From Bacteroidales bacterium (GTDB taxonomy: Bacteria > Bacteroidota > Bacteroidia > Bacteroidales > UBA12077): 41,288 bases of DNA. Shown piece by piece: positions 11,684 to 38,116 of this stretch. Below the pieces are notes generated by a model. That model made no database searches and had not been told where the DNA came from. It worked only from the letters and a program-made list of their open reading frames with translations. How positions within the stretch are numbered: the first letter of the stretch is position 1; every line of letters begins with the position of its first letter. Both the position numbers and the translations under genes were made by a program. The stretch lies in NCBI GenBank assembly GCA_027859205.1, contig JAQIBH010000076.1, forward strand, positions 1 to 41,288. The letters are read 5' to 3'.

Positions 11684-11769
11684 TTTGAGTTGCAGATTAA
11701 ATAAACAGAGTGTGATTTATATAGAAAAGAATAAAAGTCTTGAAACTCAAATCTTGATACTAAATACTA
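11684..11769. repeat. Degenerate AGTATCAAGA-family repeat in the sdhA-sdhB gap
   Basis: The 108-base gap holds TTTGAGTT (11684-11691) inverted against AACTCAAA (11744-11751). It is followed by an 18-base block (11752-11769) starting TCTTGATACT that matches the right inverted repeat of the mutA-mutB element at 16 of 18 positions. It looks like a remnant of that repeat family, ending 13 bases before sdhB. No gene is supported here. Confidence 0.6.
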
Positions 11770-11782
11770 AAATCAAAAAAAG

Positions 11783-17346: not shown

Positions 17347-19200
17347 ATGTCAGACAAAATTAAACAAACAAAATTGTTCGAAGAGTTTCCTCCCATCTCA
17401 TTACAAGAATGGGAAGATAAGATCAAAGTCGATCTGAAAGGTGCAGATTATGAAAACAAGCTTGTATGGAAAACCATAGAGGGTTTCAGCGTACAACCGT
17501 ACTATCGTGCAGAGCATCTTGAAAATCTGAAACATCTTAAATACGTTCCGGGAGAATTCCCTTTTGTTCGCGGGAGTAATGTAAAATCTAACTTTTGGTA
17601 TGTTCGTCAGGATATAGACGCAACAGATGCAGCCGAGGCGAATAAAAAAGCACTTGACGCTCTTATGAAAGGAGTTGATTCTTTAGGTTTCGATATGTGT
17701 TGTAAAGAAGATTTTTCAAATGGAGAATTCGAGATTTTACTTAAAGATATTAGCATTGAAAGTATCGAGTTAAATATTGTTGGTGCAACAGCTGCACATC
17801 CTTTTGTTGATTTCTTAAAAACAAAAAGCCTTAATAAAAATGAAGTAATAGGTTCAGTTGGATTTGATCCATTGGCTCATCTTACTTTAAACGGTAATTT
17901 CTGTAAAGCTCAGGATGAGGTTTTTGATACTGCGAAAGAATTAATCGAAAAAGCAAAAGATTTTCCTAAGTTCAGAACGATAGGAGTTAACGGCGAAATG
18001 TTTAATAACTCTGGAGCTACAACAGTTCAGGAATTGGCATTTGCGTTAGCAATGGGTAATCAGTATTTGAATCTTTTAACAGAAAAGGGATTAGATGTAG
18101 ATACAGTTGCTCAAAAAATTAAATTTAATTTTGGTGTAAGTTCAAACTATTTCATGGAAATAGCAAAATTCAGAGCAGCGAGAATGCTTTGGGCTAAAAT
18201 TGTAGAGGCGTACAAACCAAATAATTTGGAAGTAGCAAAAATGAATATTCACGCAGTTACATCTAAATTTAATCAAACAATTTATGATCCATACGTGAAT
18301 ATGTTGCGTGGAACAACAGAATCAATGTCTGCAACTATTGCAGGAGTTGAGTCATTATCTGTTACTCCATTTAATAACGCTTTCGAAAGTTCAACAGAGT
18401 TTTCTGATCGTATTGCTCGTAACACTCAAATCTTATTAAAAGAAGAATCATATATAAATAAAATTATTGATCCGGCAGGAGGTTCATATTATATTGAGAA
18501 TCTTACAAATTCAATTGCCGAACATGCATGGAAATTATTCCAGACTATCGAATCAAAAGGTGGTTACGTTGAAGCTTTTAAAGCGGGATTTATTCAAGAT
18601 CAAGTTAACGAATCGGCAAATAAACGTAATTTAAATATCGCAACTCGTCGTGAGATTTTATTAGGAACAAATCAGTATCCAAATGCATTAGAAAAGTTTG
18701 ATGCAAATATCACAGAAAAATGTTGTAGTTCCAGTAAAAGAAATGACGCTGTAGCAGAACCAATTAAACCTTTTAGAGGTGCTGAACAAATGGAAACATT
18801 ACGCTTGAAAAGTGAAAAAGCAGCCGTAACTCCCAAAGTATTTTTGTTAACTATTGGTGATTTAACCATGCGTAAAGCAAGAGCTGCTTTCGCATCCGGG
18901 TTTTTTGCTTGTGCGGGATTTGAAGTTGTTGATAATCCTGGTTTCAATACAGTTGAAGAAGGTGTAAAAACTGCTTTGGATCAAAATGCAAGTATTGTTG
19001 TAGTTTGTAGTTCCGATGATGAATATACAGAACTTGCTCCATCTGTTTTGGAACAATTAGGAGATAAAGCAATAACAGTTGTTGCAGGATATCCGAAAAG
19101 TATTGAAGCTTTAAAAGCTAAAGGAATTAAGCATTTTATTCATATGAAATTGAACTTAGTAGAAACTTTAGAAGGATTTCAAAACGAGTTGGGAATTTAA
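17347..19200 (+). CDS. mutA: Methylmalonyl-CoA mutase small (beta) subunit
   Basis: A 617-residue subunit of the adenosylcobalamin enzyme interconverting succinyl-CoA and methylmalonyl-CoA. The N-terminal TIM-barrel region shows family patterns (FRTIGVNGEMFNNSGATTV; ARMLWAKIVEAY; TEFSDRIARNTQ). The C-terminal flavodoxin-like domain reads LTIGDLTMRKARAAFASGFF, where the large subunit has the cobalamin-binding DGHDRG. The His that ligates cobalt is therefore missing, as is normal for the non-catalytic small subunit. The large subunit follows, but 441 bases away because a four-helix-bundle gene sits between them. Confidence 0.94.
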   Translation: MSDKIKQTKLFEEFPPISLQEWEDKIKVDLKGADYENKLVWKTIEGFSVQPYYRAEHLENLKHLKYVPGEFPFVRGSNVKSNFWYVRQDIDATDAAEANKKALDALMKGVDSLGFDMCCKEDFSNGEFEILLKDISIESIELNIVGATAAHPFVDFLKTKSLNKNEVIGSVGFDPLAHLTLNGNFCKAQDEVFDTAKELIEKAKDFPKFRTIGVNGEMFNNSGATTVQELAFALAMGNQYLNLLTEKGLDVDTVAQKIKFNFGVSSNYFMEIAKFRAARMLWAKIVEAYKPNNLEVAKMNIHAVTSKFNQTIYDPYVNMLRGTTESMSATIAGVESLSVTPFNNAFESSTEFSDRIARNTQILLKEESYINKIIDPAGGSYYIENLTNSIAEHAWKLFQTIESKGGYVEAFKAGFIQDQVNESANKRNLNIATRREILLGTNQYPNALEKFDANITEKCCSSSKRNDAVAEPIKPFRGAEQMETLRLKSEKAAVTPKVFLLTIGDLTMRKARAAFASGFFACAGFEVVDNPGFNTVEEGVKTALDQNASIVVVCSSDDEYTELAPSVLEQLGDKAITVVAGYPKSIEALKAKGIKHFIHMKLNLVETLEGFQNELGI

Positions 19201-19204
19201 AGAA

Positions 19205-19618
19205 TAGATATTAGTATCAAGAATAAAGAATCAAGACAATAATAAGATGCATAATTTTAAGGAATTAATTGTTTGGCAAAAAGCAAGAAAGCTGGTGAAA
19301 GAAGTTTATGTAGTTGTGAAGAATTTTCCGGAAGATGAAAAGTATGGAATTATTTCTCAGATTAAAAGAGCTTCAATATCAATACCTGCTAATATTGCAG
19401 AAGGCGCTGGGCGTAATACTAATAAAGATTTTGGTCGATTCCTTGATATTGCAACTGGATCAAGTTTTGAACTTGAAACCTTAATAATACTTTCTTTAGA
19501 TTTGGATTTTTTGAAAGAATCAGATTATAGTGATTTGATAAAGGATATAGAGGAAATCCAAAAAATGATATATAGTTTAAAAACAAGGATTCAAAGTTTA
19601 TCTTGATACTAGTTACTA
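19205..19618. mobile_element. Candidate repeat-bounded unit carrying a four-helix-bundle gene
   Basis: A 414-bp segment between mutA and mutB is bracketed by imperfect 18-bp inverted repeats: 19205-19222 (ending TAGTATCAAGA) and 19601-19618 (starting TCTTGATACTA), matching at 15 of 18 positions with a perfect 11-bp inner core. The only gene inside is the bundle protein, whose stop codon lies in the right repeat. Related solo copies of the repeat occur elsewhere in the window. No transposase and no target-site duplication are visible, so mobility is inference and any movement would depend on outside functions. Confidence 0.5.
19247..19606 (+). CDS. Four-helix-bundle protein (23S rRNA intervening-sequence protein family)
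   Basis: A 119-residue helical protein with the hallmarks of the S23/IVP family: [16 protein letters not shown] at the start, then [19 protein letters not shown] and [18 protein letters not shown]. Family members are encoded in intervening sequences of 23S rRNA genes in some bacteria and as free genes in Bacteroidota; the fold is shared with Avd of diversity-generating retroelements. Its function is unclear, probably nucleic acid binding. It interrupts the mut operon, and its TGA (19604-19606) overlaps an in-frame TTG that reads into mutB. No reverse transcriptase lies in this window. Confidence 0.88.
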
Positions 19619-19641
19619 ATAATCTAATTACTAAATTAAAC

Positions 19642-21792
19642 ATGAAACCAAATTTTAACAATATAGATCTAGATTTCCCCAAATCGAAACACCGTTCTGT
19701 AAAAGATTGGGAAAAAGAAAATGGCATTGAAGCTAACTGGAAAACTCCGGAACAGATTGATGTAAAGAATGTTTATTCCAAAGAAGATTTGGAAGGCATG
19801 GAGCATTTAGATTATGCTGCAGGACTAGCACCTTTTTTACGTGGACCTTATTCAGGAATGTATGCAATGCGTCCCTGGACTATTCGTCAATATGCAGGCT
19901 TTTCAACAGCCGAAGAATCAAATGCATTTTATCGTAGAAATTTAGCTGCCGGACAAAAAGGTTTATCCATTGCTTTTGATCTTGCTACTCATCGCGGATA
20001 CGATTCAGATAACGAACGTGTTGTTGGTGATGTTGGTAAAGCAGGTGTTGCTGTAGATTCTATTCTGGATATGAAAATCCTTTTCGATCAGATTCCATTA
20101 GATAAAATGTCTGTATCAATGACAATGAATGGAGCAGTACTTCCAGTGCTTGCTTTTTATATTGTTGCAGGATTAGAACAAGGAGTTTCTTTGGATCAAT
20201 TAAGCGGTACAATTCAGAATGATATTTTGAAAGAATTTATGGTGCGTAATACATACATTTACCCTCCGGGATTTTCAATGAAGATAATAGCTGATATCTT
20301 TGAGTACACTTCGAAAAATATGCCTAAGTTCAACTCAATTAGCATTTCTGGTTATCATATGCAAGAGGCAGGTGCAACCGCTGACCTTGAGTTAGCTTAT
20401 ACTTTAGCCGATGGTTTAGAATATTTACGCACTGGTGTTAATGCAGGTATGGATATTGATACTTTCGCACCACGTTTATCTTTTTTCTGGGCAGTTGGGA
20501 TGAATCATTTTATGGAAATTGCAAAAATGCGTGCTGCTCGTATGCTTTGGGCGAAATTAGTAAAACAATTTAATCCTAAGAATCCAAAATCGATGGCATT
20601 ACGCACACACTCACAAACTTCTGGTTGGAGTTTAACCGAGCAAGATCCATTCAATAATGTTGCTCGAACTTGTGTAGAAGCAATGGCCGCCACTTTGGGT
20701 CATACACAGTCCTTACATACAAATGCTTTAGATGAGGCTATTGCATTACCAACAGAATTCTCTGCACGTATTGCACGTAATACACAGATTTATATCCAGG
20801 AAGAAACACAAATTTGCAAAGCTGTTGATCCTTGGGCTGGTTCTTATTATGTTGAGAAGTTAACTAAAGAGATCGCAGATAAAGCCTGGGCTTTAATTCA
20901 AGAGGTTGAAGAACTGGGCGGAATGGCTAAAGCAATTGAAACAGGAATACCAAAAATGCGTATCGAAGAGGCTGCTGCACGCAAACAAGCAAGAATTGAT
21001 ACAGGTAAAGATACTATTGTAGGTGTGAACAAATACAGATTGGAAAAAGAAGATCCAATTGAAATTTTAGATGTAGATAATACTGCTGTTCGTGAGGCTC
21101 AATTAAAAAGATTAGCTAAATTACGTGCTGAAAGAAATGAAGAAGAAACGCAAGCAGCATTAAAAATGATTGAAGAATGTGCTGCATCAGGTAAGGGTAA
21201 TTTACTGGAATTAGCGATTGACGCTGCTAAAAAACGGGCTTCTTTAGGTGAAATATCTGATGCTTGCGAAAAGACCGCAGGACGATATAAAGCTGTAATT
21301 AGATCTATAACAGGAGTATATATGTCAGAATCAAAAGACGATGTAAATTATAAGAAAGCAAAAGAACTGGTTAAAAAATTTGCTGCTAACGAAGGTCGTC
21401 AACCGCGTATTATGATTGCTAAAATGGGTCAAGATGGTCACGACCGTGGTGCAAAAGTTGTTTCAACAGGATATGCCGATTTAGGTTTTGATGTTGACAT
21501 CGGGCCGCTATTTCAAACACCGGCTGAATCAGCTAAACAAGCAGTAGAAAACGATGTTCATATTCTGGGTGTTTCTTCATTAGCAGCCGGACATAAAACT
21601 TTGGTGCCACAAGTAATGGCAGAACTTAAAAAGCTTGGTCGAGATGATATTATGATTATTGTTGGAGGAGTTATTCCGGCTCAGGATTATAAATTCTTGT
21701 ATGACGCTGGAGTTGCAGGAGTATTTGGTCCTGGAACACAAATTCCTGTTGCAGCTATAAAGATGCTTGAGATTATGCTTGAAGAAGAATAG
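19642..21792 (+). CDS. mutB: Methylmalonyl-CoA mutase large (alpha) subunit
   Basis: The 716-residue catalytic subunit. The TIM barrel includes the substrate region [17 protein letters not shown] and [13 protein letters not shown]-like segments. The cobalamin domain has [13 protein letters not shown], with the cobalt-ligating His, plus [14 protein letters not shown] and IIVGGVIP. The ATG at 19642 is chosen because homologues start close to this point. An upstream in-frame TTG at 19603 would add 13 residues encoded by repeat DNA and overlaps the stop of the bundle gene, so reinitiation there is possible but less likely. A terminator follows. Confidence 0.95.
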
Positions 21793-29189: not shown

Positions 29190-29310
29190 TTTAAATTCTT
29201 ATTAAATTATATTTCATTGATTTTAAAACAACTGTCCTTATAACCTGAGTTCGACTTAATACATTTGCTTAAACTTCTATTTGCCAGACGCTTGCTGATT
29301 TCATGTTAAA

Positions 29311-29412
29311 AAGTATCAAGTATCAAGCCCCAAGTATCAAGAAATAGATTTTTTTGTCTTGAATCTTTCTGCCTGCCGGCAGGCAGGGTTACTCATATCT
29401 TGATACTTTGAT
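29311..29412. repeat. Compound intergenic repeat with palindrome
   Basis: The 417-base gap 29190-29606 has no gene. It holds three direct copies of AGTATCAAG (29312-29320, 29319-29327, 29333-29341), then an 18-bp perfect palindrome CTGCCTGCCGGCAGGCAG (29369-29386), then an inverted copy TCTTGATACTTTGAT (29398-29412). The outer units are the same repeat as the inverted repeats around the bundle gene at 19.2-19.6 kb, here without any gene between them. The rest of the gap is AT-rich, ending in the ribF promoter. Confidence 0.65.
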
Positions 29413-29575
29413 GCCTAAAATAATAAAGAGTCTTAATATCATCTGTTTAGTCTTATTCTTATATCGAACTGACGTTAATAGTTTATTGTATGTATGTATT
29501 ATTTCCTTTGGCGAATTTAGTAAATATTTTAAACATTACTTGAAATAAGAGTAGTTAGGAATAATTTATTTTCTT

Positions 29576-36998: not shown

Positions 36999-37108
36999 AA
37001 TATTGAGACCCTTTTTTAAGGATTTCATTTTCGTTAGATTTTATTAAAATACCATACTTTTAAATACGATAATTTAATCTTGATACTTGATACTCAAATC
37101 TCAATACT
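36999..37108. repeat. Repeat remnant in the hflX-asd gap, entering the asd 3' end
   Basis: AATATTGAGA (36999-37008) is a near inverse of TCTCAATACT (37099-37108), and TCTTGATACTTGATACT (37078-37094) repeats the family core. The unit fills the 100-base gap between the convergent genes and overlaps the end of asd, whose stop codon is at 37094-37096. Confidence 0.55.
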
Positions 37109-38116
37109 TTTAGATTGTACTAAATTCTTCTTCACCAAATACTCTGCAATTTGTATTGCATTAGTAGCAGCACCTTTTCGTAAGTTATCTGAAACTACCC
37201 AAAAATTAAGGCTGTTTGCTTGTGAGAAATCTCTTCTAATTCTTCCCACGAAAACATCATCTTTCCCTTCAGCATTTTTAGGCATAGGGTAAATATTATT
37301 TTGGGGATCATCTTGGATAGTAATACCCGGAAATTTAGACAGTAGTTTTTTTACTTCTTCAAGATCAAAATCATTTTCAAACTCAACATTTACAGCTTCG
37401 GAATGACCACCATAAACAGGAATTCGAACTACTGTTGCTGTTATATTTATTGATTGATCTCCTAATATTTTTCTGGTTTCGTATACTAATTTTGTTTCCT
37501 CAGTTGTATATCCGTTTTCTTCGAAATCTCCACCCTGAGGAATACAATTTAAATCAATAGGATGAGGATAAGCCATTTCACCTTTAATTCCATTTCGTTC
37601 ATTTTTTAATTGCTCTGTCGCTTTAACTCCCGAACCAGTTACCGATTGGTACGTAGAAACTACAATTCGTTTTATTTTATATTTTTTGTGTAAAGGCGCC
37701 AAAGCAACAACCATCTGAATTGTTGAACAATTTGGGTTGGCAATTATCTTATCTTCTTTTGTAAGTGTGGATCCATTAACTTCTGGAACAATTAGCTTAA
37801 TATTTTCATGCATTCTCCAAGCCGATGAATTATCAATAATCGTAGTACCTGCTTTGGCAAATTCAGGAGCCCACTTAAGGGATGTTGAACCGCCAGCAGA
37901 AAAAATTGCTATATCGGGTTGTAAAGAGATAGCTTGTTTTATTCCGATAACTTCAAGTTCTGAGTTATTAAAATTTATTTTTGTGCCGATAGATTTTTCA
38001 GAAGCAACAGCATAAACTTTTGTAAACGGGAATTTTCGCTCAAGTAATGCATTCAACATAACTTTTCCAACCAATCCGGTTGCGCCAACAACTACAATTT
38101 TCATTTCTTTAATCAT
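37094..38116 (-). CDS. asd: Aspartate-semialdehyde dehydrogenase
   Basis: A 340-residue NADP enzyme reducing aspartyl phosphate, leading to lysine/diaminopimelate, threonine and methionine. The NADP loop is VVVGATGLVGKVML (8-21); the catalytic Cys130 is in ANPNCSTIQ and His238 in YGGHSEAV. IIDNSSAWRM and the IPQGG segment also match the family. The listed ATG gives MIKEMKIVV; the internal ATG at 38104 (MKIVVVGATG) looks closer to homologues, so the start may be four codons shorter. The final few codons (LVQSKSIEI) lie in repeat DNA. Its -7 box is at 38152-38159. Confidence 0.95.
   Translation of the reverse strand: MIKEMKIVVVGATGLVGKVMLNALLERKFPFTKVYAVASEKSIGTKINFNNSELEVIGIKQAISLQPDIAIFSAGGSTSLKWAPEFAKAGTTIIDNSSAWRMHENIKLIVPEVNGSTLTKEDKIIANPNCSTIQMVVALAPLHKKYKIKRIVVSTYQSVTGSGVKATEQLKNERNGIKGEMAYPHPIDLNCIPQGGDFEENGYTTEETKLVYETRKILGDQSINITATVVRIPVYGGHSEAVNVEFENDFDLEEVKKLLSKFPGITIQDDPQNNIYPMPKNAEGKDDVFVGRIRRDFSQANSLNFWVVSDNLRKGAATNAIQIAEYLVKKNLVQSKSIEI

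Follow-up and report, generated by a model that had tools for sequence, protein, structure and literature searches.

IVP-family genes are bracketed by inverted tracts of 7-nt words, each gene with a word of its own, and gene and ends together constitute a general class of units of approximately 450 bp, one member of which lies between the mutA and mutB genes in the DNA analyzed here, a 41,288-nt contig stretch from a Bacteroidales bacterium (hereafter, the window). As an explanation of the whole, we consider it probable that the gene with its heptad ends is a spreading unit, the IVP protein of which reads its own tracts. Genes of this family are present in many bacteria, and their function has hitherto been unknown; the mobility of the intervening sequences (IVS) of 23S rRNA has hitherto been a guess.

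The mutA-mutB unit spans 414 bp and is delimited by two arms, one at positions 19205-19222 on the forward strand (TAGATATTAGTATCAAGA) and the other at 19601-19618 on the reverse strand (TAGTAACTAGTATCAAGA, the reverse complement of the right arm), which agree at 15 of 18 positions and share a perfect 11-bp core; of 5000 stretches drawn at random from the window, 23 have an exact inverted match of 11 nt at the same spacing. The enclosed gene (19247-19606, forward strand, 119 aa) begins with an ATG at 19247, and its TGA stop codon (19604-19606) lies within the right arm. Its product matches the profiles PF05635 (E-value 2.3e-41) and TIGR02436, 'four helix bundle protein' (E-value 3.5e-37). The neighbors are mutA (17347-19200, forward strand; PF01642, TIGR00642), encoding the small subunit of methylmalonyl-CoA mutase, on the left, and mutB (19642-21792, forward strand; PF01642 and PF02310), encoding the large subunit, on the right. 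Wider arms (19189-19222 and 19601-19634) are 71% complementary, the predicted RNA fold of the unit is closed by its two arms (z -2.7), and a search of Rfam gave no match at this locus. Comparison of the arms and the profile matches of the gene and its neighbors bear out the preliminary description of this locus, namely an 18-bp imperfect repeat around an IVP-type gene that separates two subunits of one enzyme; as also claimed there, the unit carries no transposase of its own. Two features had not been recorded in that description: the repeats are phased at 7 nt, and their word differs from one IVP gene to the next. At the left end, the inward AG words AGTATCA/AGAATAA/AGAATCA/AGA form a 7-periodic tract (19213-19236, forward strand) that was found mechanically both in the window and in the search of each end.

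The source genome contains 15 IVP matches, 14 besides that at mutA-mutB, most of them with a different inverted repeat of short words; among these words are GAGCTTT, GTGATTG, CAGTTGG, AAATTTG and AAAAGTA. Every left end was scored against every right end, and own pairs were compared with mismatched ones. For 102 loci from the same and related genomes, own ends score 28.7 and mismatched ends 18.3 (sd 3.8), and no permutation out of 10000 reached the value of the own pairs. A second set came from scanning 84,980 species genomes with a single protein and consists of the best 80 matches, with 78 usable loci, from Bacteroidota, Chloroflexota, Nitrospirota, Cyanobacteria, Acidobacteria, Proteobacteria, candidate phyla and one archaeon. 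In this multi-phylum set, own ends score 30.5, compared with 17.5 for mismatched ends and 16.5 for 150 control ORFs taken from those loci. The 95th percentile of the controls is exceeded by 79% of the IVP loci and the 99th by 68%, and about one fifth lack clear ends; fragmented metagenome assemblies make up many of the genomes used. The matching of own ends in both sets extends the flanking repeats to IVP genes of other genomes, and the gene with its repeats, taken as a unit in the preliminary description, recurs as such at unrelated loci and in other phyla, word and protein together. In full-text searches, mostly of non-subscription literature, we found no published link between IVP genes outside rRNA and heptad ends. 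At one locus (L004, G000:C51:3798-4103), the IVP gene is contained in a frame of 330 codons that apparently runs through the heptads into an acetyltransferase-like gene, possibly a natural fusion of the two.

Autocorrelation of the ends over 2-20 nt has peaks at 7 and 14 nt only; this holds to the left and right of the gene and for each of the two sets (1.29-1.43 fold at 7 nt). Tracts above the shuffled 99% threshold (n = 183 ends) have a median length of 32 nt and a mode of 28-35 nt, which amounts to 4-5 words per end, and, read toward the gene, AG prevails over CT (446:118 on the left, 365:77 on the right). The left end stops a median of 28 nt before the start codon and the right end starts a median of 2 nt past the stop codon, the whole unit having a median length of 452 bp. 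That the two ends of a locus change in concert was considered and found unsupported: tract lengths of left and right ends are uncorrelated (rho 0.11), and at mutA-mutB the two ends show no co-variation between species (p 0.2). An expanded pair of ends in genome G009 (locus L275, ~750-1480), where both have grown to ~170 nt of AAAAGTA/AAAAGAT words and still pair with each other, bears on such concerted change and is suggestive only.

Words and proteins were compared solely for pairs of loci without a common neighboring gene. In the genus set, end similarity is ~18 below 50% protein identity and 22.5 above 60%; in the multi-phylum set, it (W) rises from 16 for pairs under 50% identity through 26.8 (60-70%) to 33.1 (more than 70%), and is associated with protein identity with a Mantel p below 1/2000. 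The pairs of this set include TCAGCNN-type ends from Chloroflexota, Nitrospirota, a cyanobacterium and a betaproteobacterium. At fourfold-degenerate sites, pairs with 60-70% identity and matching ends are the same in 28% of cases vs 26% expected from base make-up; these sites are saturated, and therefore unselected DNA would retain no similarity between these loci. Given that end similarity follows protein identity despite this saturation, we conclude that selection holds word and protein together, that is, that the words are under selection in step with the IVP protein. Within the genus, TTAGCTNTTAGC is present in 7-31 copies in members with a TTAGC-class gene and in 1-6 copies in the others (p 1e-4, a value that ignores shared ancestry, with the IVP genes of other genomes inspected only in part).

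The core word also occurs apart from the gene. With at most one mismatch, it is found 9 times in the window (1.06 expected), and the 3.6-Mb genome contains 89 exact copies vs 10 of the reversed control. The solo copies previously noted in other gaps of the window do exist. In the window, a gene-less hairpin of the same words (AAGTATCAAGTATCAAG...TATCTTGATACTT) spans positions 29308-29417, with a CTGCCTGCCGGCAGGCAG palindrome inside, and solo end-like copies are located in intergenic gaps on the reverse strand at 11745-11775 (TCTTGAAACTCAAATCTTGATACTAAATACTAA, a core-word match) and 37075-37109 (TAATCTTGATACTTGATACTCAAATCTCAATACTT, detected by core-word match and periodic-tract search). Fifteen pairs of core words no more than 200 nt apart are in plus-then-minus (inward) order, and the opposite order was not seen in the genome list. 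The word AGTATCAAGA is present in 0-2 copies in the sister genus vs 4-89 in the genus, with no difference in copy number between genus members with and without the mutA-mutB gene (p 0.18), and AGTTTANAGTTTA is not in excess of its control. Period alone does not suffice for counting solo hairpins, and such a census was given up: a 0.29-Mb genome sample has 37 7-periodic tracts, including one run of N, which is only about twice the shuffled number (15). Two further observations concern these hairpins. The short palindrome (CTGCCTGCCGGCAGGCAG and variants) inside heptad hairpins, at 29368-29389 in the window and in similar form in L059 and L284, is placed as though inserting into hairpin loops. 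Eight contigs of genome G000 (C62, C87, C104, C114, C120, C151, C154 and C180) end within ~50 nt of AGTATCAAGA, where the near-identical repeated hairpin probably breaks the assembly.

That solo hairpins far outnumber the gene (89 copies of the word for a single gene of its class), and that hairpins of other kinds occur in the same gaps, would fit a target preference, with heptad hairpins being independent repeats inside which IVP genes merely tend to land. This explanation is improbable and is largely refuted by the word/protein result: the words follow the protein subfamily across unrelated loci and phyla at saturated synonymous divergence, and the right end begins almost immediately after the stop codon.

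The history of the mutA-mutB gap can be read in 19 members of the genus, in 11 of which the IVP gene is found in the same place. The gap contains a gene-less hairpin with a similar right-hand word in G007, G008 and G009 and another kind of hairpin in G006 and G017; it is short in G010, nearly clean in G013 and G003, and clean in the sister genus. A MutB tree was built from the 16 members of the genus in which MutB is full-length, together with three members of the sister genus; on it, IVP presence requires five changes, and well-supported branches force three of these. This pattern is best fit by an old presence, inherited within the genus, with several losses that left hairpins behind. The gene is under purifying selection (median dN/dS 0.135 among the 11 orthologues). 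An IVP gene occupies the same gap in other families of Bacteroidota as well (Carboxylicivirga, Saccharicrinis, Paludibacteraceae and others); these genes and the genus copies are not a single clade, and they have relatives elsewhere (four changes, two forced), so that movement has taken place in deeper time.

Among the other sites, that of L010 has the unit in G000 only, with four clean relatives; at that of L013, the gene is present in G000, G005 and G009, an internally deleted copy in G002, and different repeats or nothing in the others. The proposed mobility is accordingly supported for the class, with copies present or absent at syntenic sites, and fails for the mutA-mutB copy as a recent insertion: this copy is old, inherited and repeatedly lost, and other families have a related gene in this gap. 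Of the empty sites and short duplications to be expected, the former exist at other copies, and the gaps at the unit junctions are too diverged for target duplications to be read. In the L010-homologous gap of G005 (L284), a different insert of ~190 bp appears to lie between direct repeats (CAAATCTA or longer) that are single in G012, and would thus be a MITE-like element with a target duplication.

The neighbors of IVP genes are housekeeping genes, several of which encode subunits of one enzyme or machine, such as methylmalonyl-CoA mutase, succinate dehydrogenase, type II secretion E and F, and FlgE/F/G-type rod proteins. Both neighbors are co-directional with the IVP gene at 60 of 71 loci, a modest excess over control pairs (140 same, 26 different, i.e. 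84% same). This orientation, along with the purifying selection, stable fold and vertical persistence at mutA-mutB, is what would be expected of a fixed regulatory cassette, in which an IVP-bound RNA structure regulates or protects the operon or the IVP mRNA without mobility, and cognate binding is compatible with this reading as well as with a mobile unit. A fixed cassette nevertheless appears unlikely, considering the scattered presence, the empty sites, the paralogues at unrelated loci and the spread of one word/protein class over several phyla.

Among the 25 most common families of 93 flanking proteins, there is no transposase and no reverse transcriptase. RVT_1 has no match in G000, G005, G006, G018 and G019, each of which has 12-15 IVP genes, and this, together with the neighbor families, argues against the IVP gene being an Avd-like part of a diversity-generating retroelement that needs a reverse transcriptase in trans. 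Such a role is very improbable; what speaks for it is the remote homology of the protein (bAvd 36 bits; DivGenRetAVD 29.9 bits against a cut-off of 80, both matches being under cut-off), and of the previously suggested Avd link only this homology survives. Y1_Tnp genes, in turn, are present in most members of the genus, and the inward-facing hairpins resemble REPINs, as would be the case if the Y1 transposases of the genome mobilized them. However, the Y1_Tnp (RAYT) genes here, which serve as a negative control, are bracketed by classical REP palindromes (e.g., GGGCTTTAGCCC) without a 7-nt period, and G014 (96% complete) has nine IVP genes and no Y1_Tnp match, so that we give mobilization by RAYT hardly any credence. 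The likeness to REP-associated elements that had been drawn in the preliminary description does not extend to the repeats, which are not REPs. IVP units require neither a reverse transcriptase nor a RAYT.

A second class of genes with ends of their own was found in related genomes. GxxExxY genes (PF13366, PD-(D/E)XK-type; loci L325-L354) are flanked by their own inverted end words (28.5 for own vs 19.6 for mismatched ends; 0 of 10000 permutations as high, n = 28), such as CACAGAGNN, CGCAAAGNN and CACTGATGA, with a loose spacing of 9-10 nt; we found no paper that gives an account of these words. In the mutA-mutB gaps of G006 (L059) and G017 (L053), gene-less ACCACAAAG-type hairpins that look like the GxxExxY end type replace the IVP unit. 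The mutA-mutB gap would be an insertion hot spot common to hairpins of the IVP and GxxExxY types.

How an IVP protein might read its words is suggested by structure. The structures 2GSC and 2RLD, the nearest solved ones to the window protein, contain five chains each as deposited, and Xcc0516 has been described as a homopentameric toroid, a ring of five bundles (PMC4990558). The TRAP ring reads repeated NAG triplets. By analogy, the mechanism that we prefer is five words for five subunits, as the median tract length and the structures of these two relatives would suggest. A point against it is that basic character is not pronounced in the IVP proteins, whose median pI is 7.7 (5.9 for the window protein). 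The heptads are probably read by an IVP ring protein, which would bind tracts of its own class with roughly one word per subunit; its target could be folded-back RNA or single-stranded DNA, the two ends thereby being brought together. Host replication or repair, or an unknown nuclease acting in trans, might then spread the unit as well as copies of its ends that lack the gene. Within a host operon, the ends would close into a stem that RNase III may trim, as happens in the related IVS of 23S rRNA; with such trimming, the operon would tolerate an insertion between its co-transcribed genes. The mutA-mutB unit itself is old and inherited, is under purifying selection, and was repeatedly lost, with hairpin scars left behind. 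The most specific version of this scheme is possible though doubtful, namely that pentameric IVP rings read five words, one per subunit and with one word class per subfamily, and alone define a mobile class that lacks transposase, nuclease and reverse transcriptase, parallel to the GxxExxY class. With matched word/protein pairs, each protein predicts a short DNA or RNA word to bind. Such pairs could connect a protein family with heptanucleotide repeats that have lacked an explanation in several phyla, and could account for small hairpin-bracketed genes that split housekeeping operons such as mutA-mutB.

Several known systems resemble the IVP units in part. PF05635 resembles Avd (PMC10053308), the remote homologue of the window protein in diversity-generating retroelements, with which it shares the fold. 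In the trnL intron of Nostoc, heptanucleotide stems (TDNGATT, NNTGAGT) pair in P6b (PMC4476775); Beggiatoaceae, cyanobacteria and some Bacteroidetes have TAACTGA repeats (PMC4679880). Like the IVP ends, these are 7-nt words with variable positions, and TAACTGA is the complement of TCAGTTA, which is close to TCAGCNN/TCAGTNN; no IVP gene is linked to them in those papers, and we consider their kinship with IVP ends a lead. REP/RAYT elements share with the IVP unit the single gene within its own cognate repeats and the solo and inward-paired copies scattered over the genome. They differ in that a Y1 (HuH) transposase lies between their repeats and that their ends are palindromes without a period, whereas the IVP unit has no transposase and its ends are 7-nt phased tracts of words. 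The IVP unit works like REP/RAYT and is not a member of that group; it behaves as a mobile unit in its presence and absence at syntenic sites and its copies at unrelated loci.

The closest counterpart is the IVS of 23S rRNA. The Coxiella 23S IVS, which has been termed a selfish element, contains a gene of the same family and is 428 nt long, with terminal inverted repeats and a tandem GACAGAT x3 before the ORF (PMC4990558). The IVS of Coxiella and Leptospira share with the IVP units the S23p/IVP ORF, a similar length (428 nt in Coxiella, compared with the median given above) and the terminal inverted repeats; however, they lie inside rRNA and are excised by RNase III, whereas the units described here lie between genes, and none of 184 IVP loci contains any of six conserved 23S motifs. 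The mutA-mutB unit has the IVP/S23p ORF and the terminal inverted repeats that are able to close a stem, and it lies outside 23S rRNA; therefore, we regard it as a unit of this kind without counting it among the 23S IVS. Matching of word and protein in 23S IVS is not described in the papers that we found. Because the Coxiella IVS has the same gene family, a similar length, repeats and heptamers, we treat the intergenic units, on this sequence evidence, as the putative general form, of which the IVS of rRNA would be the case of a special location.
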